From: Candidatus Desulfofervidaceae bacterium
GTDB lineage: Bacteria; Desulfobacterota; Desulfofervidia; Desulfofervidales; Desulfofervidaceae
Length of the DNA: 12,620 nucleotides
Direction of reading: 5' to 3'
Assembly: GCA_021160485.1 (NCBI GenBank)
Contig: JAGHCL010000004.1
Coordinates: 1 to 12,620, forward strand
The translations under genes were made by a program, and so were the position numbers. Under the pieces are notes generated by a model. That model saw only the letters and a program-made list of their open reading frames with translations, was not told the origin of the DNA and did no database searches. Of this stretch, positions 39 to 12,475 are shown one piece after another (position 1 is the stretch's first letter; each line of letters opens with the position of its first letter).

Positions 39-77
39 TTTAAACAAAATACAGTATTGAAATGGAGAAAGCAAGAT

Positions 78-599
78 ATGGATGTTAAAGAAAACCAAAA
101 GGAATCATTTGAAACTTTATTAGAAGAAGCAAAAACACTAAGAGAAGAAAAAACAGAAATAAAATCGCAATCTGAACAACTTTTTCTTTATTTCCGTTTG
201 GGAACAGAGTATTATGCTTTAAAAATGGAAGAAATCAGAGAAATTACTTCTAAAATGCCGATTTTTAAGGTTCCAGGTTGCCAAGATTATATTTTAGGAG
301 TGGTAAATCTACGTGGAGAAATCATTCCAGTAATAGATTTAAAAAAGCGGTTAAATTTGGGAGAAAGCACTTTGGAAAAAGATTTTCGGGTAATCATTAT
401 TAGAATCTTTGGAGAACCCTTGGGTATGGTAGTTGATGAGATAGAGGATATGGCTGCGGTTTCAGAAATTCTACCGGACGAAGAAGAACAGTTGTTAGAA
501 GGTAAAATAAGGGTAACTCCTAAAGGCAGTAAGGAGTTTAAGGTTATTGGTGTATTGAATTTAAAAAACATTTTCTTCCCAGAAAAATCAATGATGTAG
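78..599 (+). CDS. cheW: CheW-family adaptor protein
   Basis: Cytoplasmic scaffold protein that links a chemoreceptor to the CheA kinase. The product is 173 residues. The first ~34 are highly charged (Glu/Lys-rich, probably helical), and the rest reads as one CheW SH3-like domain. The family signature NLRGEIIPVIDL is at residues 77-88, and a typical C-terminal segment (VIGVLNLKNIF) follows. I chose the ATG at 78 because GGAG (64-67) sits ten bases before it. The frame also opens at a TTG at 57, which would add seven residues with no good ribosome site. It is the first gene of a Wsp-like cluster and would correspond to WspB or WspD. A 140-base gap separates it from cheA, whereas the later genes are nearly continuous. 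Family assignment is firm; pairing with this receptor is inferred from position. Confidence 0.95.
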   Translation: MDVKENQKESFETLLEEAKTLREEKTEIKSQSEQLFLYFRLGTEYYALKMEEIREITSKMPIFKVPGCQDYILGVVNLRGEIIPVIDLKKRLNLGESTLEKDFRVIIIRIFGEPLGMVVDEIEDMAAVSEILPDEEEQLLEGKIRVTPKGSKEFKVIGVLNLKNIFFPEKSMM

Positions 600-739: not shown

Positions 740-2818
740 ATGGGAATAGAAGATTTTGATGTCTCTCAATTCATTGAGCCATTTATAGAAACGGCTAAAG
801 AGAGATTGCTTAAATTAGAAGAGGGTTTTTTAAAATTAGAAAAAGACGAAGCCGATAAATCTCTGTTGGGAGAGTTATTGCGGGAAGCTCACACCCTTAA
901 AGGCGAAGCCCGAATGTTGGGGCTTAATGAAATAAGTAACACAGCCCACCACCTTGAGGATTTTTTAGTAGAAATAAGAGACAAAAGAAAAGAACCAGCT
1001 TCTGTTGTAGACGACCTTTTTGAAAAATTAGAAGAATTAAAACAATTAATTAATAAAATAGGGAAAGAAGAAAAGGGGAAAGGAATAGAAGAAACTTCCC
1101 CAAGGGAAACAATTAGAATAAAGGTTGGACTTTTAGAAAAGGTGGCCAATCTTTCCCTGGAGACTGTTCTTAACTTCAAACAAATTGAAAAAAATAATTT
1201 TTATCTAAGACGCTTACTCAAAAATAGCTCGGAAATAAAAGAAGAGTGGGAAGATATAAAAAGAACAATCAAAGCTACAGAAATTGAAGTCAGTGAAAAA
1301 ATTAGCTATTTTCAGCAAATCCTTTATGAACTTTTTGATTATCTTCGTGAAATCTGGAATAAATATGAAATCATTCTGGCAACTCAAGCCCTTATCAGTG
1401 AAGAACTATTAATGCAAAGTCTTTCCTCACGGATGTTACCTCTTTCTACTATTTTTGACCTCTACCCTGGTAAAATGAGGAATATGGCCAAAGAAATAGG
1501 AAAGAAAATAAACTTTGAAGTTAAAGGAGGGGAAATTGAGCTGGATAAGGCTATTATCGAGGAAATTAACGATCCCCTAATCCATATCCTCCGCAATGCC
1601 TTGGACCACGGCATAGAAGACCCCCTTGTTCGTCAACGTAAAGGAAAGCCTGAAGAAGGCACAATCAGTCTTAGGGCTACTCAACGAGAAGGAAAAGTAA
1701 TTATAGAGGTAGAAGACGACGGAGAGGGGTTAAATTTAGACAAAATTAAAAAAGAAGCCCTTAAAAAAGGAATAATTTTAGATGAAGATATAAAAGAGAT
1801 CGCCGGCGAAGTCCCACCGGCTATTCTAGAAACAATCTCTCATTCTGGTTTTAGCACAAAGGGAAGCATTACCAGTATTTCAGGACGTGGAGTAGGGTTG
1901 GATGCTGTTAAAAACACGGTAGAAAATTTAAATGGCACTTTAAGAATATTTTCTTATCCGGACAAAGGCACAAAGTTTGTTCTGGAACTTCCCCTTACCA
2001 TTGCCCTTTTGCCCGCCATTTTAGTAAAAGCAAGTAACCAGATATTTGCCTTACCCACTCAATGGATAGAAGCCGTTTTGGAAGTCAAAACTGATGATAT
2101 AAAACAACTCAAGAACCAGAAGTTGATAGAAATAAACAATCAACCAGTATCGTTGTTTGATTTAAATCAGGCAGTGGGGTTTTCTCCTTTAAAAATTTCA
2201 GAAGCAAAATCTCAGGTGGTGGTAATAAAACATAATCACCAACTGTGTGCATTTGCAGTAGAAGAAATAATAGACCAAAGGGAAATTATTGTTAAACCTC
2301 TGAGTAAATATTTAGATACACGCCTGGCTATCGGCGCTTCTATCTTAGAGAATGGAGGTATAGTCCTTATTTTGAACACTTCAGAACTTCTCAAAAGCAC
2401 TCCTGCCTATACTACATCTTTCCTAGAAACGAAAATGCCTGCCAGAAAGGGCAAAATAAAAGTGCTGGCCGTTGATGACGCTCTAATCACCCGCACACTT
2501 CTCAAAAATATTCTCCTCAGCGCAGGCTATGAAGTAACCACAGCCATCAATGGTTTGGATGCTTTACAAAAACTCGCCCAGAGCAAATTTGACATTATCG
2601 TGACTGATGTAGAAATGCCACGTATGGATGGGCTCCAATTAACTGCTCAGGTTAAAAAACACGAACAATTTAAAAACATCCCTGTAATCATTGTCAGTTC
2701 CCATGAAACAGAGGAAGAAAAAATGCGGGGGCTAGAAGCTGGTGCTGACGCCTATTTGCCCAAAAGCACCTTTAGTCAACAAATGCTGATAGAAACGATA
2801 GAAAGACTAGTGGAATGA
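740..2818 (+). CDS. cheA: Hybrid CheA histidine kinase with C-terminal receiver (WspE/FrzE-like)
   Basis: Cytoplasmic kinase that autophosphorylates in response to receptors and passes phosphate to receiver domains. The protein has 692 residues. The N-terminal HPt domain (about 1-105) has the phospho-histidine H51 in REAHTLKGEA. There is no room for a P2 docking domain: a short charged linker leads into the dimerisation region (about 123-237, longer than usual). The ATPase domain has an N-box around residues 281-294 (N286 in HILRNALDHG), DDGEG at 326-330 and SGRGVGL at 381-387. A CheW-like domain (about 418-555) is followed by a receiver (573-692) with D579/D580, phospho-acceptor D623 and K675. 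This order is that of WspE and FrzE. GGGGG at 722-726 is a weak, distant ribosome site. The stop overlaps the next start (ATGA, 2815-2818). Targets are probably its own receiver, CheB and the GGDEF regulator. Confidence 0.95.
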   Translation: MGIEDFDVSQFIEPFIETAKERLLKLEEGFLKLEKDEADKSLLGELLREAHTLKGEARMLGLNEISNTAHHLEDFLVEIRDKRKEPASVVDDLFEKLEELKQLINKIGKEEKGKGIEETSPRETIRIKVGLLEKVANLSLETVLNFKQIEKNNFYLRRLLKNSSEIKEEWEDIKRTIKATEIEVSEKISYFQQILYELFDYLREIWNKYEIILATQALISEELLMQSLSSRMLPLSTIFDLYPGKMRNMAKEIGKKINFEVKGGEIELDKAIIEEINDPLIHILRNALDHGIEDPLVRQRKGKPEEGTISLRATQREGKVIIEVEDDGEGLNLDKIKKEALKKGIILDEDIKEIAGEVPPAILETISHSGFSTKGSITSISGRGVGLDAVKNTVENLNGTLRIFSYPDKGTKFVLELPLTIALLPAILVKASNQIFALPTQWIEAVLEVKTDDIKQLKNQKLIEINNQPVSLFDLNQAVGFSPLKISEAKSQVVVIKHNHQLCAFAVEEIIDQREIIVKPLSKYLDTRLAIGASILENGGIVLILNTSELLKSTPAYTTSFLETKMPARKGKIKVLAVDDALITRTLLKNILLSAGYEVTTAINGLDALQKLAQSKFDIIVTDVEMPRMDGLQLTAQVKKHEQFKNIPVIIVSSHETEEEKMRGLEAGADAYLPKSTFSQQMLIETIERLVE

Positions 2819-3153: not shown

Positions 3154-4621
3154 CCTTAGAATGAAGATGTTTTTTATTTTTACTGGTTTGTTGAGTTTAG
3201 TGATTGCTTCGGTAACCATTGGTGTATTGGTGGCCAACTGGATGGGGCAACAAAATAACTTGATGGTAACCTTTACCACTGAACTGAGTAATTGCCTTAA
3301 TACAAAAGAAAAAGTAGCTCTCCTTCGGGGAGAGTTTATCCAAGCGTCTCTTACCCGAGATCCACAAAACCTCAAAAAGATAGAAATGACAAACCAAAAG
3401 CTGGCCCAAGAGATTCAAAAAGATATAAATCGCATTTTTAACCAAAGCACCGGTTGTCTGCAGTGTCATTCCCGAAACGAAATGAGAGACCTCGGAAAAG
3501 AAACCGAAGATACCTTAAACGAATTCCTCCGCATTGGCCGCGAAATCTTCCGTCTTAAACGCACGAGCTCAGAAAAAGCAGATGAGTTAATCCAGAAAGA
3601 CCTATTAGACGTATATCAAGATCTACAATCCTTTTTGGGCCATGGAGTAGAAGAAAGTCAAAAGTTTGTAAGCCATGCCGAGCAAAGGGTTAAAGGCACC
3701 TACATGTTAGCGAAAAAACTCCTTTCTGGTCTGGCTCTTCTCAGTTTAGTTGTCGCTATAGGAGGTTTTTTTATCTCCAGCCACAAGGTTATAGGTCCCA
3801 CTCGTCAAATGGCAAGACAGTTTAAACAAATCGCTACAAATGTCCTTTCTATTGCTGAAAATCAAAGTCAGAATACTTCTAAACAGGCCAGTGCCGTTGT
3901 GGAAGTAAGTGCGTCGGCTGAAGAATTAAGTCGTTCAGCTGAAGCCCTGACCAAACAGGCTGAAGTCATTGTGCAGGTAGCCCATAAGTCCATGAAAGAG
4001 GCGATAGAAGTAACTGAGCGTATGCAATCTACGGTAAATTTTATTAACACGGTCAAAGCTCAATCTGACGAAGCCACAGAAAAAATTATGCGTTTGGGGG
4101 AAACAATAGATGAAATTGGAAAGGTATTAACTTTAATAGAAGAGGTAGCAAGTCAAACAAAACTTCTGGCCTTCAATGCTTCTATAGAGGCAGTGAGTGC
4201 AGGCGAGGCAGGAAAGAGATTTTCCATTGTGGCTAAGCATATTAAAGACCTGGCCGACAATACAAGTGCTTCAACGGAGGAAATAAGGAAGCTCATTGAA
4301 GAAATAAAGTCGCTGACTCATACTACAATCCTCAGCACTGAACAAATGCAAAAGGCAGTAAATAAAGGCGTTTCCCAAGTATCCATGGCAGGTGAAATCA
4401 TGGAGAGGATAAAAGAGGTTATCCAGGAAAATAATGAAGTGGCACAAAAAATCAACATTGCTACTACACAGCAAAAAACTGCTACTGAACAAATTACGGC
4501 AGCCATGGAAGAGCTATCCCATGCTGCCCAAGAATTGGCTGAGGGAAGCAAACAAACAGTTGAAGCCATGCAACGATTAAACGAAAATGCCTCTTTACTG
4601 AAAAAGATAATTGAAGGTTAA
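3140..4621 (+). CDS. Methyl-accepting chemoreceptor with periplasmic CXXCH haem-binding motif (WspA-like)
   Basis: Membrane receptor of 493 residues that controls CheA. A positively charged N-terminus precedes TM1 (about 9-33). A predicted periplasmic, mostly helical domain (about 34-194) follows, then TM2 (about 195-213) and the cytoplasmic signalling domain to the end. The periplasmic part contains C106-L-Q-C109-H110, a classical c-type haem attachment site; H168 and H179 are candidate distal ligands. After TM2 only a short HAMP-like helix with VIGPTR (217-222) is seen before the coiled coil, so a full HAMP domain is not evident. The signalling tip (about 333-372) reads VASQTKLLAFNASIEAVSAGE-like and departs from consensus at positions matching Tsr F373, N376 and R388. 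Haem-containing receptors are known, such as DcrA of Desulfovibrio and haem-c sensors of Geobacter. Sensing of redox state or a gas ligand is inference. Confidence 0.93.
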   Translation: MKYVSLRMKMFFIFTGLLSLVIASVTIGVLVANWMGQQNNLMVTFTTELSNCLNTKEKVALLRGEFIQASLTRDPQNLKKIEMTNQKLAQEIQKDINRIFNQSTGCLQCHSRNEMRDLGKETEDTLNEFLRIGREIFRLKRTSSEKADELIQKDLLDVYQDLQSFLGHGVEESQKFVSHAEQRVKGTYMLAKKLLSGLALLSLVVAIGGFFISSHKVIGPTRQMARQFKQIATNVLSIAENQSQNTSKQASAVVEVSASAEELSRSAEALTKQAEVIVQVAHKSMKEAIEVTERMQSTVNFINTVKAQSDEATEKIMRLGETIDEIGKVLTLIEEVASQTKLLAFNASIEAVSAGEAGKRFSIVAKHIKDLADNTSASTEEIRKLIEEIKSLTHTTILSTEQMQKAVNKGVSQVSMAGEIMERIKEVIQENNEVAQKINIATTQQKTATEQITAAMEELSHAAQELAEGSKQTVEAMQRLNENASLLKKIIEG

Positions 4622-4627
4622 GTGTAT

Positions 4628-5671
4628 ATGGAAAAAGGGCAGGACAAAATAAAGGTGCTCGTGGTTGATGATTCTCTTCTTATAAGGCGAGTTTTATGTT
4701 TACTCTTGGGAAAAGACCCACAAATTGAGATAGTAGGAGAAGCAGAAAATGGTAAAGAGGCTGTGGGAAAAACGCTCAAATTGAAACCTGATGTTATCTT
4801 AATGGATATTCTCATGCCGGTCATGGATGGACTAGAAGCCACCCAAAGAATTATGTCTCTTTGTCCCACGCCCATTCTTATTGTCAGTTCAGTGGTGAAT
4901 AAAGTAGAGGTCTACAGTTCTTTCAGAGCGCTGGCTGCTGGGGCTTTAGATGTATTGGAAAAGCCAGATTCTGATAGTGAATGGCAAAGACTGGGGGGAA
5001 ATCTTATCAGGAAAATCAAATTGTTTGCAGGGGTAAAAAATCTGCATCCTATAGAGATCAAACCTCAAGTTCCGCCTCCAACAGAAGTTAAAAAAAGCAG
5101 GGGAAGATACGAAGTAGTAGCTATCGGAGCTTCTACTGGTGGGCCAACTATTCTTAAAGAGATTCTAGCTCCCCTACCTCCTTCTTTTCCCATGCCTATA
5201 TTAATTGTTCAACACATACCACAGGGATTTATAGACATAATGATAGAATGGTTAAACCGCAACACAAAATTGAAGGTTAAACAGGCTAAACATGGTGAAC
5301 CGGTAAGAGCAGGTATAGCCTATGTCGCTCCTGCAGAAAAACACCTGCAAGTAAATAATTGCAAGGTTTTGGTTGTGAACGGAATTATACCACCTGTTAA
5401 TACTCACCGTCCATCTGTTGACCTTTTATTTCGGTCTGTGGCAGAGGCATATGGCAATAAAGCTATCGGCATTTTACTCACAGGAATGGGTGAAGATGGA
5501 GCCCGAGGACTTAAGGCCATTAAGGAAAAAGGGGGATATACTATTACCCAAGAAGAAAAAAGCTGTGTTGTCTTTGGCATGCCTAAGGCCGCAATTGAAC
5601 TAGGTGCGGTTATCAAAACATTAAAACCTTCCCAAATTGCTCAAGAATTATTAGTCTTAGCAGGAGTTTAA
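4628..5671 (+). CDS. cheB: CheB receptor methylesterase/glutamine deamidase (WspF-like)
   Basis: Removes methyl groups from receptor glutamates when its receiver is phosphorylated by CheA, giving adaptation. The product is 347 residues. The N-terminal receiver (about 8-125) has phospho-acceptor D60 (ILMDILMPVMDG). A linker of about 30 residues follows, then the methylesterase domain. Its catalytic triad is visible as S169 (GASTGG), H196 (VQHIPQGF) and D290 (GMGEDGARG). I chose the ATG at 4628 with AAGG at 4614-4617, ten bases upstream. A GTG at 4622, immediately after the receptor stop, would add two residues but lies too close to that site. In Wsp systems the CheB homologue acts as the negative regulator of signalling. 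Here it lies directly between its receptor substrate and the cyclase gene. Confidence 0.96.
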   Translation: MEKGQDKIKVLVVDDSLLIRRVLCLLLGKDPQIEIVGEAENGKEAVGKTLKLKPDVILMDILMPVMDGLEATQRIMSLCPTPILIVSSVVNKVEVYSSFRALAAGALDVLEKPDSDSEWQRLGGNLIRKIKLFAGVKNLHPIEIKPQVPPPTEVKKSRGRYEVVAIGASTGGPTILKEILAPLPPSFPMPILIVQHIPQGFIDIMIEWLNRNTKLKVKQAKHGEPVRAGIAYVAPAEKHLQVNNCKVLVVNGIIPPVNTHRPSVDLLFRSVAEAYGNKAIGILLTGMGEDGARGLKAIKEKGGYTITQEEKSCVVFGMPKAAIELGAVIKTLKPSQIAQELLVLAGV

Positions 5672-5673
5672 AA

Positions 5674-7149
5674 ATGAAGCGTAATTCAATACTTTTAGTA
5701 GATGACAGCGTCTTAGTCTTAAAAATGTTAAGTGCCTTCCTTGAGAAAAATGGTTATCGGGTAACAACAGCCATGAACGGCCTGGAAGCAATTGAAAAGG
5801 TCTATAATGAACCACCCGATATTATTTTACTGGACATTATGATGCCCAAAATGAATGGCTATCAGGTCTGTCGTTTGCTCAAAAATGACGAACAAACTAA
5901 ATATATCCCTATTATTATGTTCACATCCAAAGATAAACCTATAGATAAATTTTGGGGATTACAAACCGGTGCGGATGCCTATGTAGCTAAAGACATTGCC
6001 TATGACAAACTTCTCCAAATCATCGCCACGTCGCTAGAAAAGGTCAAGGATAGAAAACACAAAAAACTCAAACCAGAACAACCCATTACTCTTATAGACA
6101 TTTTGTTAAAGACTAATGAATTGCTAGATAGAAAGCTCTACGAGGTTACTATCATTAACCGAATTACTACCCTATCCCGTAATATTCATGCTTATAAAAA
6201 AATAATAGATGACATTCTGACTATTCTTTATGAGCTCATTAATTATCAACTGGCAACGGTATTCGTTACAGATGTAAATTCAGGCACACTTTTTGTCAAA
6301 TCTGATCTCTATCCCCATAAAGAAGACTTAATTGAACTTGAGAATTTCTGTCTTTCACAATTCCAAGTTCAAGAACTTGAAACGCCTCCCCTTGTAGAAT
6401 CAGTTATATTGGCACCCGAAGAGGCTGAAGAAGCTAAGATAATTACTGATGCAGAGGCATTTTACCTCTTCCAGTCCAAGGCCAAAGAAATTAAAGAAAA
6501 AGAAAACATCTGGGGTGGATTTATTTTTTATGGGGAAACGGTTAAAGACTTATCTGAAAATGAAAAGGCAATTTTAGAACTCATTTTGGAACAGGCATTT
6601 GTTATCGCTGAAAATGCCTATCTCTATGAGAAAATTCGTTTAAAGTCGGTTACTGACGAGCTTACCGGCCTTTATAACCGTCGTTACTTCTTTGAACGAC
6701 TCACCGAGGAATATGAAAAAACAAAGAGACATTCTGAATTGGAATTCTCGGTAATCATGTTAGATATAGATCATTTTAAGAAAATAAACGACACCTATGG
6801 TCATATGGCAGGAGATGTAGTGTTAAAAATGCTGGCGCGAATTACGAAAAACAGTGTTAGAACCACAGATATTGCTGCTCGGTTTGGAGGCGAGGAATTC
6901 ATATTTCTCCTTCCTCAAACTCCACTAAAAGGTGGAATCGTCTTTGCGGAAAGACTGAGAAAAACAGTAGAAGAATACAATTTTCAAGCCTTGGGACATA
7001 AAATTCCTGTTACCATTAGTTTAGGCGTCAGCAATTACAACAACAAACTCCCATACACTCTAGATGAAATCATTAAAAACACCGATGAAGCCCTATATCA
7101 GGCCAAAGAGACTGGGAGAAATAAGGTCTGTGTGCATGAAGAAGATTGA
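5674..7149 (+). CDS. Response regulator diguanylate cyclase: receiver, GAF-like domain, GGDEF
   Basis: Cytoplasmic output protein that makes cyclic-di-GMP from two GTP. It has 491 residues. The receiver (1-120) carries D10/D11, phospho-acceptor D54 and K106. A helical linker and a GAF-like region (about 150-318, with WGGFIFYGE near its end) follow, then a complete GGDEF domain (about 325-488). Metal-binding D364 is in MLDIDHF. The active-site motif is GGEEF (405-409). RTTD at 396-399 sits at the spacing of the inhibitory I-site of PleD, so product feedback is likely. This is WspR in role, but WspR has no GAF-like insert. AGGAG (5662-5666), seven bases ahead of the ATG, sets the start, and the cheB stop lies just before it. 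It is the only recognisable output protein in the cluster. Confidence 0.95.
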   Translation: MKRNSILLVDDSVLVLKMLSAFLEKNGYRVTTAMNGLEAIEKVYNEPPDIILLDIMMPKMNGYQVCRLLKNDEQTKYIPIIMFTSKDKPIDKFWGLQTGADAYVAKDIAYDKLLQIIATSLEKVKDRKHKKLKPEQPITLIDILLKTNELLDRKLYEVTIINRITTLSRNIHAYKKIIDDILTILYELINYQLATVFVTDVNSGTLFVKSDLYPHKEDLIELENFCLSQFQVQELETPPLVESVILAPEEAEEAKIITDAEAFYLFQSKAKEIKEKENIWGGFIFYGETVKDLSENEKAILELILEQAFVIAENAYLYEKIRLKSVTDELTGLYNRRYFFERLTEEYEKTKRHSELEFSVIMLDIDHFKKINDTYGHMAGDVVLKMLARITKNSVRTTDIAARFGGEEFIFLLPQTPLKGGIVFAERLRKTVEEYNFQALGHKIPVTISLGVSNYNNKLPYTLDEIIKNTDEALYQAKETGRNKVCVHEED

Positions 7150-8473
7150 ACGTTTTTCTCAATTTATTGAAACCAAAACCGGCCTTTTTTTCGATGAAAC
7201 AAGAAAAAGATACCTCATCCAGGCAATTAAAAAAAGAATGTTACAAAGGAAGATTACGATAGAAGATGAGTATTACCAATTGCTCAACCACCCGATATTA
7301 GGCCAAGAGGAATTAACTGCGTTAACAAAATTTATTACCATTGCAGAAACACGTTTTTTTCGCCATCCGGAGCAATTTGAGGCCTTTAAAATTTACCTCC
7401 TTCCTAAATTGATAGAAAAGAACAAAAAAAGAGGAGAAAATACTCTTAAAATATGGAGTGCTGGTTGTTCCAGTGGAGAAGAACCTTATACCATTGCCAT
7501 GGTACTGGCCGTATCTAAAAACCAACTAGAAACGTTTTCCGTCGAAATTTATGCTACCGATATAAACCAAGATCTTCTTAAAAAGGCAAAAAGCGGAATT
7601 TATAATGCAAAATCAATTTCTCACTTACCCAAACGCTACCAAAAATACTTCGTCTGCCAAGGTGAACATTGCCTGGTTAAAGAAGAGATAAAAAACATGG
7701 TAAAGTTTTTTGAACTTAATCTAATAAAAGAACCTTTTCCTCTATACATACTAAACGAACTGGATGTTATCTTTTGTCGGAATGTATTTATCTATTTTCG
7801 GGAAGAATCTGTAAAAAGAGTGCTACGAAACTTTTATCTTTGTTTAAAAGATGATGGATATCTGATCTTAGCTCCTACTGAAAGCCTTATTATAAATTCT
7901 AAGACCTTTGTCACAGAAAAAATAGGGGGAACATTCTTTTATAGAAAGGCAAAATTTAAGTTTAAATCTCCTTTTCATATACCTAAACCTTCTGTCTCAC
8001 TCTCTAAAAAAACTTCCACTCCAAAAGTTTCTTCAAAAACCATCTTTAAAAAGAAAACCCCTCCTTTCAAACCAGATAACCTCAAAACAGCCTTGAAGGA
8101 AGCCAGATTATATGCTGACGCAGGCTTATATGACAGAACAATAGAAATTTGCCATCAGGTTTTAAACCATCATCCCACACTTCCTGAAGCCTATCTTATA
8201 CTTGGCATAGTGTATTACGGAACAGGAGCAATAGAAAAAGCTATAGCGAATTTCAAAAAGGCCATCTATTTAGCTCCTGATTTTGCCTTAGCTCACTTTT
8301 ATTTAGGCAATGTATATTGGCATCTGAATAAAATGTCCGAAGCTATTAGGTCATACAAAAATGTTGTAAAATCTTTACAAAAAACGCCTTATTGTGGCAT
8401 CTTACCTGAAATTATGGATGTTATTCCAGAAAAGGAATTACGGCAGATTTGCAGTGAATATATAAAAACCTAA
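7136..8473 (+). CDS. cheR: CheR receptor methyltransferase with C-terminal TPR domain (WspC-like)
   Basis: Transfers methyl groups from S-adenosylmethionine to receptor glutamates. The protein has 445 residues. An all-helical CheR N-domain comes first. Next are the family motif ETRFFR (71-76), the SAM-binding loop WSAGCSSGEEP (107-117), an acidic strand end ATDIN (140-144) and CRNVFIYF (214-221). A Lys/Ser/Pro-rich linker (about 276-314) leads to about three TPR repeats (about 317-416). CheR with TPRs is typical of WspC and FrzF and not of flagellar CheR. The frame is open further upstream, but I start at the ATG at 7136: AAGG (7123-7126) sits nine bases before it and the CheR N-domain begins there. 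The first 14 bases overlap the cyclase gene, implying coupled translation. It is the last gene of the cluster. Confidence 0.95.
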   Translation: MKKIERFSQFIETKTGLFFDETRKRYLIQAIKKRMLQRKITIEDEYYQLLNHPILGQEELTALTKFITIAETRFFRHPEQFEAFKIYLLPKLIEKNKKRGENTLKIWSAGCSSGEEPYTIAMVLAVSKNQLETFSVEIYATDINQDLLKKAKSGIYNAKSISHLPKRYQKYFVCQGEHCLVKEEIKNMVKFFELNLIKEPFPLYILNELDVIFCRNVFIYFREESVKRVLRNFYLCLKDDGYLILAPTESLIINSKTFVTEKIGGTFFYRKAKFKFKSPFHIPKPSVSLSKKTSTPKVSSKTIFKKKTPPFKPDNLKTALKEARLYADAGLYDRTIEICHQVLNHHPTLPEAYLILGIVYYGTGAIEKAIANFKKAIYLAPDFALAHFYLGNVYWHLNKMSEAIRSYKNVVKSLQKTPYCGILPEIMDVIPEKELRQICSEYIKT

Positions 8474-8566: not shown

Positions 8567-10123
8567 TTAATCTCTCAGTGCACTCAGAAAATCGGCTGCC
8601 TCTTGCACTACTTTCTCTACAGGCTGAGTGGTATCAAGGACAATTTGATTTTCATCCTTAAGGGGTTCAAAGGTTTGCTTAAAACTTGAGAGTAATCCCA
8701 AATGACCGTCAGAAATGTCTTGGCTCTCTTCCTGTCTTTTGGCCAAGCGTTGCTTGAGGATATCTTCATCACATTGAAGGTGCAGGAAATAATAAGGACA
8801 GTTTAGTGCCTGAGCAAGGTCTCTTACCCCCTGGCGATAAACCTCTTTATTGAAAGAGGCATCTAAAATGACAGGGAAACCGGCATTAAGAGCCTCTTTG
8901 GCTAAATTCAGAATATTCGCATATACCTGTTTGGTAACCTCAGGTGCATAAATACCTTGGCCAAAGGGAACATAAAGGTGCTCATCGGGTTTAAGTCCTA
9001 AAATGTGTTTACGCACAGCGTCAGAACGAATGACAACCGCTCCTAACCTTGCCGCCAGGTGTCTGGCTACAGTGGACTTGCCACTTCCTAAAAAACCAAC
9101 CGTCGCCAACAGACAGGGTTTAAAAAGTGGTTGCAGATAGCTATAAGCCAACTCAAAATATGCCTTTGCCCGTGCTAAAGCTGCCTTTTGCCTATCTTGA
9201 GATATACCGGACATATCTGCTTCAAAGCTACTAATCTTACCTCGCACATAAGCACGATAAATTTTATAAAAATTCAACACACCTAGAAGGCCAAAATCAT
9301 TTGTTTGTGCCAAATAAGTATTGAGAAAGTAATTGCCCAAAGGAGAAGCTTGACGAAAATCCAAATCCATTAATAAAAAGGCAACATCAGCCGTCACATC
9401 CGCATAGCGGAAACGGGTATTAAATTCAATGCAATCTAAAACATAAACCTTGTTTTGATAGTAATAAATATTGGCGCAATGAAAGTCTCCATGGCCATCT
9501 TTGATTTGTCCTGCTTTTATGCGGTTTAGAAAATAAACCTTTTTATCTCTTAAAAATTCAAAAGAATACTTCTTTAATTTCTCGTATATTTCTCTGCTAA
9601 TGGTGCGACCTGTATAAGTTTTGGTTTGATCAAAATTTTCTTTGATATTTACCTCTATTTTTTCCGGCAGACCATAGGTAGCAATCTCTTCGTTTGTTTC
9701 CGAGCTGGCATAAAAATTAGCCATTATCCGTGCAATTTTTTCCATAATTGAAGATGTTAATTCACCCTTTTCCAGCAATGATGTAAGACAGCTCTCCTCT
9801 GGCAGTTGTTTCATCTTGACGGCATAATCAATGACTTCACCTTCTCCCCCAATAAAAACGCCTCCTTCTCTCTTTACCACAGGAACAACGTCCAGATAAA
9901 TATCAGGTGATAGCCTACGGTTTAGTCTTATTTCTTCCTGACAAAAATAATGTCTTTTTTCCAGGGTCGTAAAATCAAGAAAGCCAAAATCTACTGGTTT
10001 TTTTATCTTGTAAACGAAGTCACCGGTGAGAAATACCCAGGAGATGTGTGTTTGTAACAGTTTGATTTCTTCAACTGGATGAGGATAAGCAAGAGGTTTT
10101 AAAAGAAAGTTTATAAAGTCCAT
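8567..10123 (-). CDS. Fused phosphotransferase-like / P-loop kinase protein of unknown substrate
   Basis: A 518-residue two-domain protein. The N-terminal part (about 1-330) has the aminoglycoside-phosphotransferase fold signature: HGDFH (211-215) with N218, then LDCIEF around D230 and a following ADVTADVAF. It belongs with the COG2187-type proteins. The C-terminal part (about 337-518) is a small P-loop kinase of the AAA_33/COG0645 type, with Walker A GFLGSGKST (343-351) and a RSDAVRKH segment (366-373). This fusion is widespread in bacteria and often labelled 'bifunctional aminoglycoside phosphotransferase/ATP-binding protein', but its substrate is not established. An antibiotic-resistance role should not be assumed. 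GGCAGG lies eight bases before the ATG. It follows the flavin reductase gene on the same strand after 44 bases, so the two are probably cotranscribed. Confidence 0.9.
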   Translation of the reverse strand: MDFINFLLKPLAYPHPVEEIKLLQTHISWVFLTGDFVYKIKKPVDFGFLDFTTLEKRHYFCQEEIRLNRRLSPDIYLDVVPVVKREGGVFIGGEGEVIDYAVKMKQLPEESCLTSLLEKGELTSSIMEKIARIMANFYASSETNEEIATYGLPEKIEVNIKENFDQTKTYTGRTISREIYEKLKKYSFEFLRDKKVYFLNRIKAGQIKDGHGDFHCANIYYYQNKVYVLDCIEFNTRFRYADVTADVAFLLMDLDFRQASPLGNYFLNTYLAQTNDFGLLGVLNFYKIYRAYVRGKISSFEADMSGISQDRQKAALARAKAYFELAYSYLQPLFKPCLLATVGFLGSGKSTVARHLAARLGAVVIRSDAVRKHILGLKPDEHLYVPFGQGIYAPEVTKQVYANILNLAKEALNAGFPVILDASFNKEVYRQGVRDLAQALNCPYYFLHLQCDEDILKQRLAKRQEESQDISDGHLGLLSSFKQTFEPLKDENQIVLDTTQPVEKVVQEAADFLSALRD

Positions 10124-10167
10124 CAGTCAAACCTGCCTTTATAAGTCTAAAAACAGAGCTTAAACAC

Positions 10168-10626
10168 TTAAAAAAATTCTTCCCAGACAAATAAAAGTGG
10201 TTTTTTATCTGGTTTCAACACCTCCCCTTCAATGGCCTCTCCAATAAACAGCGTATGGTCACCTGCTTCCACAGCATTGGTTAATCTACATTCTATATAG
10301 GCCAAGGCATCCTTCAGCACCGGAGAACCGTGTCCCGCTTCAAAGTGGGGGATACCTTCAAATTTATCCATAGTTTTACCAGAATGATAACCAAAGTGTT
10401 TGGCTATTTCTACCTGTTCTTCGCTCAAGGTATTAATGGCAAAATAACCGGAACTTTTAATCAAACCATGCGTATAGCGACTTGGAGCAATGGCAACCAT
10501 AAGAAGAGAAGGATTAAAAGACACCTGGGATAACCACGCTGCTGTCATTCCATTCTTTTTCCCTTCTGCCTGAGCAGTAATTATATAAACTCCATGAATA
10601 ATGGCCTTTTTAATCACCTTTTGCAT
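10168..10626 (-). CDS. Flavin reductase-like FMN-binding flavoprotein
   Basis: A 152-residue single-domain cytoplasmic protein of the flavin reductase-like (DIM6/NTAB, flavoredoxin) family, which binds FMN in a split beta-barrel. Visible family features are MTAAWLSQVSFNPSLLMVAI (27-46), a YTHGLIKSSGYFAIN stretch that follows the usual pattern, and a C-terminal segment with GEAIEGEV. It probably moves electrons between a reduced nicotinamide or protein partner and flavin or another acceptor; the partner cannot be read from the sequence. A very good ribosome site (AAAGGAGG, complement of 10633-10640) lies seven bases before the ATG. A 21-bp palindrome sits about 22 bases upstream and may be an operator. 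It is the first gene of the minus-strand pair with the fused kinase. Family call is firm, physiological role open. Confidence 0.9.
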   Translation of the reverse strand: MQKVIKKAIIHGVYIITAQAEGKKNGMTAAWLSQVSFNPSLLMVAIAPSRYTHGLIKSSGYFAINTLSEEQVEIAKHFGYHSGKTMDKFEGIPHFEAGHGSPVLKDALAYIECRLTNAVEAGDHTLFIGEAIEGEVLKPDKKPLLFVWEEFF

Positions 10627-10648
10627 GCCACATCCTCCTTTGGTTTAT

Positions 10649-10669
10649 GGAGTAAAAATAATATACTCC
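10649..10669. promoter_or_regulatory. 21-bp palindrome upstream of the flavin reductase gene, possible operator
   Basis: GGAGTA (10649-10654) and TACTCC (10664-10669) are perfect inverted arms around nine A/T bases. On the minus strand a TATATT element, a plausible -10 box, falls inside it. The palindrome lies between the probable promoter and the ribosome site of the flavin reductase gene, where a dimeric repressor would act. No T-run follows it in the direction of the gene, which argues against a terminator. The regulator is unknown. Confidence 0.4.
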
Positions 10670-10718
10670 CTTGTGCAATTCTTCCCATTACCTTAACTTA
10701 TTTTACAACAAAAAGCAA

Positions 10719-10877
10719 TTAAAACCTTCTTTCATCAACTACTCGCACCGCTTTACCTGGTGAACGAGGTAGTCCTCCAATAGGCAAAATCTCTATATCT
10801 GCGTGAAAACCCAAAAATGGATTGGGAGAAAAGTCAAGTAAATTTTTAACCCAAAATCCCAGCAACATCTGGCAAAT
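10719..10877 (-). pseudogene. Relic of the C-terminal end of a phenylacetate-CoA ligase-like gene
   Basis: On the minus strand an open stretch of 52 codons ends at a TAA (complement of 10719-10721). It runs back to an in-frame TAG at 10878-10880. Its last ~30 residues contain ADIEILPIGG, then LPRSPGKAVRVVDERRF. These read like the extreme C-terminus of AMP-forming phenylacetate-CoA ligases, where a hydrophobic strand is followed by a LPRS-x-GKA-x-RV-x-D pattern and the stop. Such enzymes have about 430 residues, and nothing of the rest is found between here and ssb. An ATG at 10868 would give a 49-residue product, but no ribosome site is seen. I read it as a deletion remnant. The match is from recalled family pattern, not an alignment. 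Confidence 0.6.
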
Positions 10878-10946
10878 CTAAATAGCTAAAGTCCCCAAAT
10901 AGACTCAACTAGATGCGTGATGATTTAGTATTTTCTTATTCATCTT
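10878..10946. other. Intergenic stretch with no recognisable feature
   Basis: Between the ligase relic and the ssb promoter I see no open frame of note, strong palindrome or RNA-like structure on either strand. With the relic, the palindrome and the ssb promoter, it makes up the 377-base region (10627-11003) without an intact gene. Confidence 0.5.
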
Positions 10947-10974
10947 TTGCTTGTCTTGTCTTAAAAACTATGTT
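10947..10974 (+). promoter_or_regulatory. Probable ssb promoter
   Basis: TTGCTT (10947-10952) and TATGTT (10969-10974), 16 bases apart, fit a sigma-70 promoter and would give a leader of about 20-25 bases. An alternative pair is TTGTCT (10951-10956) with TAAATT (10974-10979) at 17 bases. The ribosome site GGGGAGG (10992-10998) lies five bases before the ssb ATG. Confidence 0.45.
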
Positions 10975-11003
10975 AAATTTTAAAAAATTTTGGGGAGGAT
11001 GTT

Positions 11004-11411
11004 ATGGCTGGTATCAACAAAGTTATTCTCATTGGACACCTTGGCGCTGACCCTGAGCTTCGTTATACCCCAAGTGGGACTCCGGTCGCCAATTTTCGTG
11101 TAGCCACGACCGAACGCTGGGTAAATAAACAAGGTGAACGCGCTGAAAACACAGAATGGCACCGGGTGGTAGCCTGGGGGAAACTAGGTGAATTTTGTGG
11201 GCAATATTTAAGTAAAGGCAAGCAAGTTTACATTGAAGGAAAATTAAGGACGCGTTCCTGGGAAGATAGAGATGGCAATAAAAGGTGGACAACAGAAATC
11301 GTTGCGCAAAAGTTACAGTTATTAGGACGTCCAGAAACCACACCTTCTGCTGTAGCAGAAGAAACCGTTCCTCCTGACGAAGTGCCGTTTGATGACGACA
11401 TTCCTTTCTAG
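11004..11411 (+). CDS. ssb: Single-stranded DNA-binding protein
   Basis: Binds and protects single-stranded DNA in replication, recombination and repair, normally as a homotetramer. The 135-residue product begins [20 protein letters not shown], the standard OB-fold start. It continues with [24 protein letters not shown] and [18 protein letters not shown] (OB domain about 1-110). A short acidic tail ends in DDDIPF, the conserved tip that recruits partner proteins. The linker (about 111-125) is brief, so the protein is shorter than the E. coli one (178). GGGGAGG precedes the start. It converges on the radical SAM gene with only two bases between stop codons and no terminator between them. It appears monocistronic and is not beside rpsF or rpsR, its common neighbours. 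Confidence 0.98.
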
Positions 11412-11413
11412 GA

Positions 11414-12424
11414 CTACAAACCTACACCAGGAATTTTGGTTCCACAGTTGATACAACGGCCATCTTTGATGTTATGTGCTCCAATTGTGTAACCATAGCG
11501 AGCTATAACTAAGGCTCCACAGTGATGACAATATGTGTTTTCTCCATCATCACCAAGCACATTACCTGTATAAACATACCGCAATCCCTCTTCAAGACCA
11601 ATTTCTCTAGCCCTCCTTACTGCTTCTACTGCAGTTGGCGGTAGATGAGTCAAACGGTAAGTAGGGTAGAAACGGCTGATATGCCAAGGAATATCAGGGC
11701 TTAATTGGTAAATCCACCTGGCAATATCACGCAATTCTTCTTCACTGTCATTTAAAGTAGGGATAAGAAGGGTAGTTAATTCCACCCAGATGCCTGTTTT
11801 TACCATATTACTAATCGTATCCAGGACTGGTTGTAATTTAGCTCCGCAGATCTCTTTATAGTATTTTTCCCGAAAAGATTTGAGATCTATGTTGGCAGCA
11901 TGGAGATAGGGTTTAATTATTTCTAGTGCTTCTTTGCTCATGTAGCCGTTACTAACAAAAACATTTTTCAATCCCTTAGCGGCAGCCAATTTAGCAGTAT
12001 CATAAGCAAGTTCAAAAAATATAGTGGGTTCAGTATAAGTGTAAGCAATGGAGCTGGCTCCATGGGTTATAGCTTCAGCCACAATCTCCTCTGGTGTAGT
12101 CTTCCAGCCCAAAATGCGGCCTTCTTCCTTGGGCATTTGCGAAATGTCAGCATTTTGACAGAATAAACAGCGAAAGTTGCAACCTACTGTCGCAATAGAA
12201 AAGATAAGGCTACGTGGATAAAAATGGTAAAGAGGTTTTTTTTCAATTGGATCATTATGCTTGGCAACAACTTTATCATAAACCAAAGAGTATAATTTCC
12301 CCTTCTGGTTCTCTCTCACTCCACAAATGCCACGCTTGCCTTCAGGAATAAGACAATGGTGTGCACACAATTTACACCTTACCTTCTTCGCAGCTAATTC
12401 CTCATAAAGCATTGCCTCTTTCAT
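11414..12424 (-). CDS. amrS: PflA-like radical SAM protein of the AmmeMemoRadiSam (AmrS) family
   Basis: A 336-residue iron-sulfur enzyme that would cleave S-adenosylmethionine to a radical. The N-terminal part has cysteines C17, C20, C24 and C34 (CKLCAHHC, then GICGVR). The radical SAM cluster motif is C82-x3-C86-x2-C89 (CNFRCLFC). A TYTEPT motif and an IDLKSF segment follow, as in pyruvate formate-lyase activase relatives. The C-terminus has two CxxC pairs (C299/C302, C324/C327), likely a metal site. This layout is that of AmrS, which usually occurs with AMMECR1 and Memo partners; none is visible here. The substrate is unknown. I start at 12424 with AAGGAGGG eight bases upstream. The frame is open to 12475, but that ATG falls within the putative -35 box. 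Confidence 0.9.
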   Translation of the reverse strand: MKEAMLYEELAAKKVRCKLCAHHCLIPEGKRGICGVRENQKGKLYSLVYDKVVAKHNDPIEKKPLYHFYPRSLIFSIATVGCNFRCLFCQNADISQMPKEEGRILGWKTTPEEIVAEAITHGASSIAYTYTEPTIFFELAYDTAKLAAAKGLKNVFVSNGYMSKEALEIIKPYLHAANIDLKSFREKYYKEICGAKLQPVLDTISNMVKTGIWVELTTLLIPTLNDSEEELRDIARWIYQLSPDIPWHISRFYPTYRLTHLPPTAVEAVRRAREIGLEEGLRYVYTGNVLGDDGENTYCHHCGALVIARYGYTIGAHNIKDGRCINCGTKIPGVGL

Positions 12425-12446
12425 TCTATCAGCCCTCCTTGGTTTT

Positions 12447-12475
12447 AAAATGGTAATAAAAACTTGCTTTGTCAA
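12447..12475 (-). promoter_or_regulatory. Probable promoter of the radical SAM gene
   Basis: Reading the minus strand, a perfect TTGACA (complement of 12470-12475) is followed after 17 bases by CATTTT (complement of 12447-12452), a weak -10. The start point would fall near 12440, at the edge of the ribosome site, so the leader would be very short. The exact -35 and spacing support the call; the -10 limits it. Confidence 0.45.

Follow-up and report, generated by a model that had tools for sequence, protein, structure and literature searches.

The chemoreceptor of a Wsp-like operon in a Candidatus Desulfofervidaceae bacterium carries a c-type haem attachment motif, CXXCH, in its predicted periplasmic sensor domain. 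It is fairly likely that this protein is a chemoreceptor with haem c in a four-helix bundle and that it feeds a diguanylate cyclase array. The observations that bear on this reading are the motif, its conservation and topology, the haem machinery of the genome, a predicted fold, the operon and its intact catalytic motifs. The window, the whole 12,620-nucleotide stretch of DNA analysed here, holds on its + strand all seven kinds of Wsp part, as judged by open reading frames and Pfam, in the order CheW, CheA-REC, divergent CheW, chemoreceptor, CheB, REC-GGDEF and CheR-TPR (Table 1). Another locus, L033, has seven frames in an order identical to that of the window operon.

Table 1. Features of the operon and of its chemoreceptor (positions in the window).
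Feature	Position	Strand	Remarks
CheW adaptor (WspB/D-like)	57..599	+	Pfam CheW 1e-25; later ATG at 78
Hybrid kinase CheA with C-terminal receiver (WspE-like)	740..2818	+	Pfam: Hpt (H51), HATPase, CheW, REC
Second, divergent CheW-like protein, 112 aa	2815..3153	+	BLASTP 2e-13 to G002 counterpart
Chemoreceptor (WspA position), 493 aa	3140..4621	+	MCPsignal 9.6e-28
Membrane segment 1, residues about 12-32	3173..3235	+	hydropathy
Periplasmic sensor domain, residues 34-194, predicted four-helix bundle	3239..3721	+	
CXXCH haem-c attachment motif, C106-L-Q-C109-H110	3455..3469	+	helix 2/helix 3 connection; identical in 3/3
M115	3482..3484	+	identical in 3/3; start of helix 3; second-choice axial ligand
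H168	3641..3643	+	identical in 3/3 with G169; helix 4; first-choice distal ligand
H179	3674..3676	+	window only; Q in both orthologues
Membrane segment 2, residues about 194-213	3719..3778	+	hydropathy
Cytoplasmic signalling hairpin, straight after membrane segment 2	3788..4618	+	
CheB methylesterase (WspF-like)	4622..5671	+	CheB_methylest 2.7e-68, REC; two NCBIfam CheB models over cut-off
Response-regulator diguanylate cyclase (WspR role)	5674..7149	+	Pfam REC, GGDEF
CheR methyltransferase with TPR repeats (WspC-like)	7136..8473	+	CheR 1e-53, TPR

The motif is spelled by the codons TGT CTG CAG TGT CAT in the receptor frame. A preliminary description of this DNA had placed it between two membrane segments, and this is correct: both segments are strong in hydropathy, and the CXXCH domain sits between them. 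There are three cysteines in the whole receptor, C52, C106 and C109. Shuffling of residues 34-194 yields CXXCH in 0.07% of 200,000 trials, and the expectation from the operon's own composition is 0.00014.

Full-length matches to the receptor occur in two other genomes among the 59 searched as relatives (own included), namely G003 (66%) and G002 (58%), which are members of the family that the window comes from; identities of the two orthologues in the sensor domain are 51% and 40%. The other matches listed, a part of the total, start at residue 112 or later and therefore miss the motif. A profile made from the three sensors matched six of 395 genomes of the phylum, three of them strongly (the window and its two orthologues) and three weakly, with E-values of 2.3e-4 to 9.6e-4. 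The loci of the weak matches have no CXXCH in frames of at least 150 aa, and only three sequences carry the sensor domain. Within these three, C106, C109, H110, H168 and G169 are identical, while C52 is found in two.

Across the three sequences, 50 of 161 sensor positions are invariant. The densest windows lie at 106-118 (7 of 13) and at 165-180 (8 of 13), but 60% of shuffles also reach 8, and a clustering of invariant residues near the motif beyond chance is rejected (P 0.60). The conservation argument thus rests on the motif itself.

The genome of the window (G000) encodes CcsA (1.5e-59) adjoining ResB (2.3e-57), which make up System II of c-type cytochrome maturation. Matches to PF01578 and class III cytochromes are both present in all six family or order genomes compared (G000-G005). 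A second PF01578 protein adjoins a gene that looks HemA-like by eye and is presumably HemX. The haem-c reading of the preliminary description has thus found support on the three points on which it had been left open to refutation: the CXXCH is kept in both orthologues, the domain lies between two membrane segments, and a maturation system accompanies the cytochromes. From these sequence features it is very likely that haem is attached at the CXXCH; what the haem would report, be it redox state, NO or electron supply, is a matter of inference.

The ligand on the distal side of the haem is probably H168, the best candidate, which is kept in all three sensors and followed by G169. By an estimate of 1.5 Å per residue from the helix ends, H168 lies about 9-15 Å along the bundle from H110, and on this geometry coordination of the same haem by both is possible. 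M115, also conserved, and a five-coordinate haem are possible alternatives. H168 and H179 had both been proposed as sixth ligands; the former holds up, whereas the latter is rejected as a conserved ligand, being Q in both orthologues.

Residues 34-194 are modelled as an up-down four-helix bundle with no strand, continuous with the two membrane helices, in a model built without haem from a 2-sequence alignment. With this model, a bundle fold is highly probable. Identity to bundle domains of known type (Tar, Tsr, MCP2201, PcaY_PP, NarQ and TorS) is 5-14% in the comparisons listed, and unlike these domains the window sensor has a CXXCH. Neither 4HB_MCP_1 nor TarH is matched over the cut-off; 4HB_MCP_1 appears at a sub-threshold 0.0016 for locus L005 and is not listed for the window or L033. 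The preliminary description had raised a comparison with Tll0287-like and Geobacter haem-c domains, but the model gives a four-helix bundle instead. At E up to 5, no sensor of the three has PF11845 or PF21563 listed, and together with the all-helical model this leads to rejection of a Tll0287-like fold. As a control, none of 30 bundle-type frames of the phylum has a CXXCH (one frame per locus, 30 loci out of many more matches in 297 genomes). Some of these frames are not proven to be chemoreceptors: 11 run to the end of their locus and 8 show no tip motif of a receptor.

No HAMP domain is matched in the receptor at E 0.05 (Pfam), and its residues 217-491 are colinear with residues 279-553 of the CtpM model with no net gap. 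The receptor is apparently HAMP-less, the second membrane helix entering the signalling hairpin directly, unlike in the HAMP-bearing receptors of loci L136-L138 described below. The strict consensus for methylation sites has no match in the receptor.

By motif reading, the CheA-REC kinase has HTLKG at 51 and a receiver motif at 620, and it has near-full-length matches in G003 (63%) and G002 (59%). The 112-aa CheW-like protein itself has no Pfam match; its counterpart in G002 matches CheW at 1.9e-5. The CheR-TPR frame is open from 7064, with a likely ATG at 7136 judged by eye against L033. The neighbouring genes at 8567-12475 encode an AAA_33 kinase-like fusion protein, a flavin reductase and a radical SAM protein on the - strand, and on the + strand a single-stranded-DNA-binding-like protein called by eye at 11004-11411. 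These neighbours are apparently ordinary and unrelated to the operon. Elsewhere in the same assembly, another che cluster, L054 (G000:C214), encodes a CheA of 1004 aa, together with a double CheW protein and HEAT-like repeats (by eye). In style it is unlike the family genomes and could be a stray contig of the assembly.

The cyclase, of 491 aa, has a receiver motif at 51-62 and RTTD-IAARF-GGEEF from 396, with both GGEEF and RxxD intact. Its best PDB sequence match is PleD (1.1e-55), followed by REC-GGDEF proteins; chains named WspR score 8.3e-33 and 1.2e-31. Between REC and GGDEF, at residues about 125-320, lies a middle part of about 190 residues with no Pfam match. Full-length orthologues of the cyclase are present in G003 (68%) and G002 (51%), and none was found in G001, G004 or G005. 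Receptor and cyclase orthologue thereby co-occur in all three genomes with the receptor, as against none of the three others. Near-full-length matches to CheA-REC are likewise confined to G000, G002 and G003 among the six; the longest in G001, G004 and G005 are partial, at 32-36%. PilZ proteins are encoded in all six genomes. The cyclase is linked to the receptor cluster in two genomes, G000 and G003. The G002 copy is on a separate contig (C3), and the receptor cluster of that genome consists of CheW, CheA, CheW, receptor, CheB and CheR. The proposal of a cyclic-di-GMP array thus stands as far as a complete set with an intact-motif cyclase is concerned, but the linkage fails in one genome of three. 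It is likely that the array drives the neighbouring cyclase.

A different haem-c receptor occurs elsewhere in the order. The bundle receptor was not found in G001, a single contig of 2,540,211 bases, or in the order-level relative G005. Instead, a Cache-type receptor with CXXCH is encoded in G001 at L146 (G001:C1, 5530-13809), within a series of che genes closed by a REC-GGDEF cyclase. The series consists of a small STAS-like protein (by eye), a receiver, CheA, a C554-type cytochrome with four CXXCH and the receptor, followed by CheW, CheR, a CheD-like protein (by eye) and the cyclase. The receptor is 746 aa long, with a CYHCH, HAMP and PAS, and a match to PF21563 at 2.8e-5 that is below the cut-off. 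In G005, a receptor of the same type with CYHCH is split over two contig ends (L147/L155; 76 and 78% identity), which also carry the four-CXXCH gene and a cyclase gene of the L146 kind. Absences in G000 and G005 carry little weight, since these genomes are 81% and 82% complete.

Cache-type CYHCH receptors also stand behind a four-CXXCH cytochrome gene at L159 7100-9343 (G004) and L160 9249-11681 (G003), the latter region having CheA (903 aa) and receiver genes as well. No GGDEF frame was seen near the Cache-type receptors of G003 and G004, in 18 kb and 13 kb; a haem-c receptor is thus not always paired with a cyclase in the family. A strictly complementary distribution of the two receptor types is rejected, because G003 has both and G004 has the Cache type without a nearby cyclase. 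Each type goes with a receiver-cyclase in two genomes, the bundle type in G000 and G003 and the Cache type in G001 and G005. These pairings support, without proving, the idea that haem state is read into cyclic-di-GMP. The best BLASTP segment between bundle and Cache-type sensors (E 0.035) falls within the second membrane helix and does not take in the CXXCH; at the level of sequence the two are not detectably homologous, and the order appears to use two unrelated haem-c receptors. Loci L126-L129 (G004, G002, G003 and G001, four genomes of the family) encode a further set of CXXCH-sensor proteins that match PF11845, look like kinases by eye and adjoin multihaem cytochrome genes; L128, checked by Pfam, has PF21563 and HisKA.

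The nearest relatives of the cytoplasmic half of the receptor come from L136, L137 and L138, of which L136 and L138 have CheR-TPR and CheA-REC in their clusters. All three of these receptors have HAMP, with a Cache match over the cut-off in L137 and L138, but none has a CXXCH, and no GGDEF frame was tagged nearby. The haem bundle and the cyclase thus look like additions in the Desulfofervidaceae branch.

Haem attachment, axial ligands, the direction of the switch, the signal and the output are inferred, and a possible pathway is as follows. Once the two membrane helices are inserted, the CcsA/ResB machinery would attach one haem via C106 and C109. H110 would be the proximal ligand, with H168 of helix 4 probably on the opposite side, or nothing, or M115. 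Reduction by periplasmic cytochromes, or displacement of the distal ligand by NO, CO or O2, would change the state of the haem; helix 4 and membrane segment 2 would then shift and carry the HAMP-less hairpin along. This shift would set the activity of the CheA-REC kinase, while CheR-TPR and CheB would adapt the receptor. The kinase would phosphorylate the receiver of the REC-GGDEF cyclase, and the resulting level of cyclic-di-GMP would decide between settling and swimming.

Could the receptor work without a haem? CXXC by itself is common as a redox motif, the model of the sensor contains no haem, and the cysteines could form a thiol/disulphide or metal site that makes the receptor a cysteine redox switch. 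Disulphide sensors of the CSS type are known in cyclic-di-GMP proteins, according to the available part of PMC8846402. Against a cysteine switch stand H110, kept directly after the second cysteine together with H168, and the lack of the motif in all 30 bundle-type control frames. The genome has the haem-c machinery and cytochromes, and receptors of Cache type with a CXXCH occur in relatives, in two cases alongside a cyclase. All this makes a haem-free switch improbable. If the haem is there, it may still be structural or ancestral, with the array sensing surface contact or membrane state as proposed for Wsp. The sensor of WspA is of the 4HB_MCP_1 type, and according to the part of PMC8846402 consulted, chimaeras with other sensor domains in its place still sense surfaces; the array here could likewise respond to surfaces without haem. 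As there is no detectable HAMP, the membrane helices may also drive the hairpin directly. Yet the motif and H168 are kept at 40-51% sensor identity, and a separate haem-c receptor is paired with a cyclase in G001 and G005; we regard a non-sensing haem as rather unlikely. That the haem state is the signal is reasonably probable.

The output of a haem sensor might also lie mainly elsewhere, in type IV pili or EPS via CheB or CheA-REC, with the neighbouring cyclase not the target. The unlinked cyclase of G002 would fit this, as would the lack of tagged GGDEF frames around L136, L137 and L138 and of GGDEF frames near the receptors of Cache type in G003 and G004. The cyclase orthologue is nevertheless still present in G002 and absent from the three genomes without the receptor, and a main output other than the cyclase seems unlikely.

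The Wsp system of Pseudomonas (ACF class, with the WspR cyclase) shares with the window the seven kinds of part in one operon and, by the model, a bundle-type sensor. It differs in that the window has a CXXCH in the sensor, no HAMP found, another gene order, and a 491-aa cyclase that has an extra middle part, has PleD as its best solved match and is unlinked in one genome of three. Receptors of the sCache_heme/DUF3365/Tll0287-like kind (GSU0582 and GSU0935) and DcrA resemble the window receptor in having a periplasmic CXXCH or c-type haem in a chemoreceptor, and NO or redox sensing is reported for some of them in the accessible parts of PMC12889525 and PMC3460858. However, GSU0582, GSU0935 and Tll0287 have Cache/PAS folds, while the window sensor is predicted to be all-helical and has neither PF11845 nor PF21563 listed. 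Compared with Mcp40H-20 and sCache_heme, the extracytoplasmic CXXCH is present in the window, whereas a Cache fold with a beta sheet is absent from the model. The Esn network of Geobacter sulfurreducens likewise combines receptor, CheW, CheA and cyclase, in that case a class 40H receptor, and each is needed for growth on electrodes. Unlike the window receptor, EsnA is listed with a GAF sensor and no haem is mentioned in the part of PMC5585712 that covers it, and esnA lies outside the esnBC cluster. The clusters of G001 (L146) and G005 are similar in that a receptor with CXXCH stands among che genes and a REC-GGDEF cyclase closes the series, but their receptor is Cache-like with HAMP and PAS, their CheA has no REC, and genes for a CheD-like protein and for a four-CXXCH cytochrome are included.

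No haem-c four-helix-bundle chemoreceptor and no haem-bearing Wsp receptor were found in the open-access literature, as seen in listings and abstract openings. The oxygen and redox table in the available part of PMC8846402 includes haem PAS, globin, hemerythrin, flavin and disulphide sensors. In that same part, 'c-type heme' does not occur, and 'heme c' occurs three times, as 'heme covalently', 'heme cofactor' and 'heme coordination'. Two strains of Zetaproteobacteria have complete wsp clusters, and the mentions of CXXCH in the accessible text concern cytochromes (PMC5513912). Of two haem-c Cache proteins tested in the portion of PMC12889525 at hand, the signalling-fused one binds NO and releases it slowly. 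Neither chemotaxis nor c-di-GMP occurs in the main text of PMC10553843 or PMC5539420, on partners of ANME.

A broader reading, which we hold tentatively and at close to even chances, is that there is a family of bundle-based haem-c sensors, unrelated to the Cache types, that provides the input to a Wsp-like cyclic-di-GMP array; that a Cache-type haem-c receptor has been recruited separately to a cyclase-bearing array in the same order; and that settling is set by the redox state of the periplasmic cytochrome pool, in effect by electron supply. A bundle with its own haem would offer a direct and testable mechanism. It would also mean that Cache is not the only sensor fold able to accommodate haem c, and the receptor might then be a second example of the route by fragment recruitment that the available part of PMC12889525 proposes. 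HotSeep-1, the best-known member of this lineage, lives in syntrophy with methane-oxidising archaea and has genes that are implicated in direct interspecies electron transfer (PMC10553843, in the text accessible). Haem chemistry would then be linked to cyclic-di-GMP in the HotSeep-1 lineage, and the proposal that electron supply decides settling would become testable. By sensing the supply of electrons in its surroundings, a bacterium of a sulphate-reducer lineage may thus choose whether to swim or to settle.
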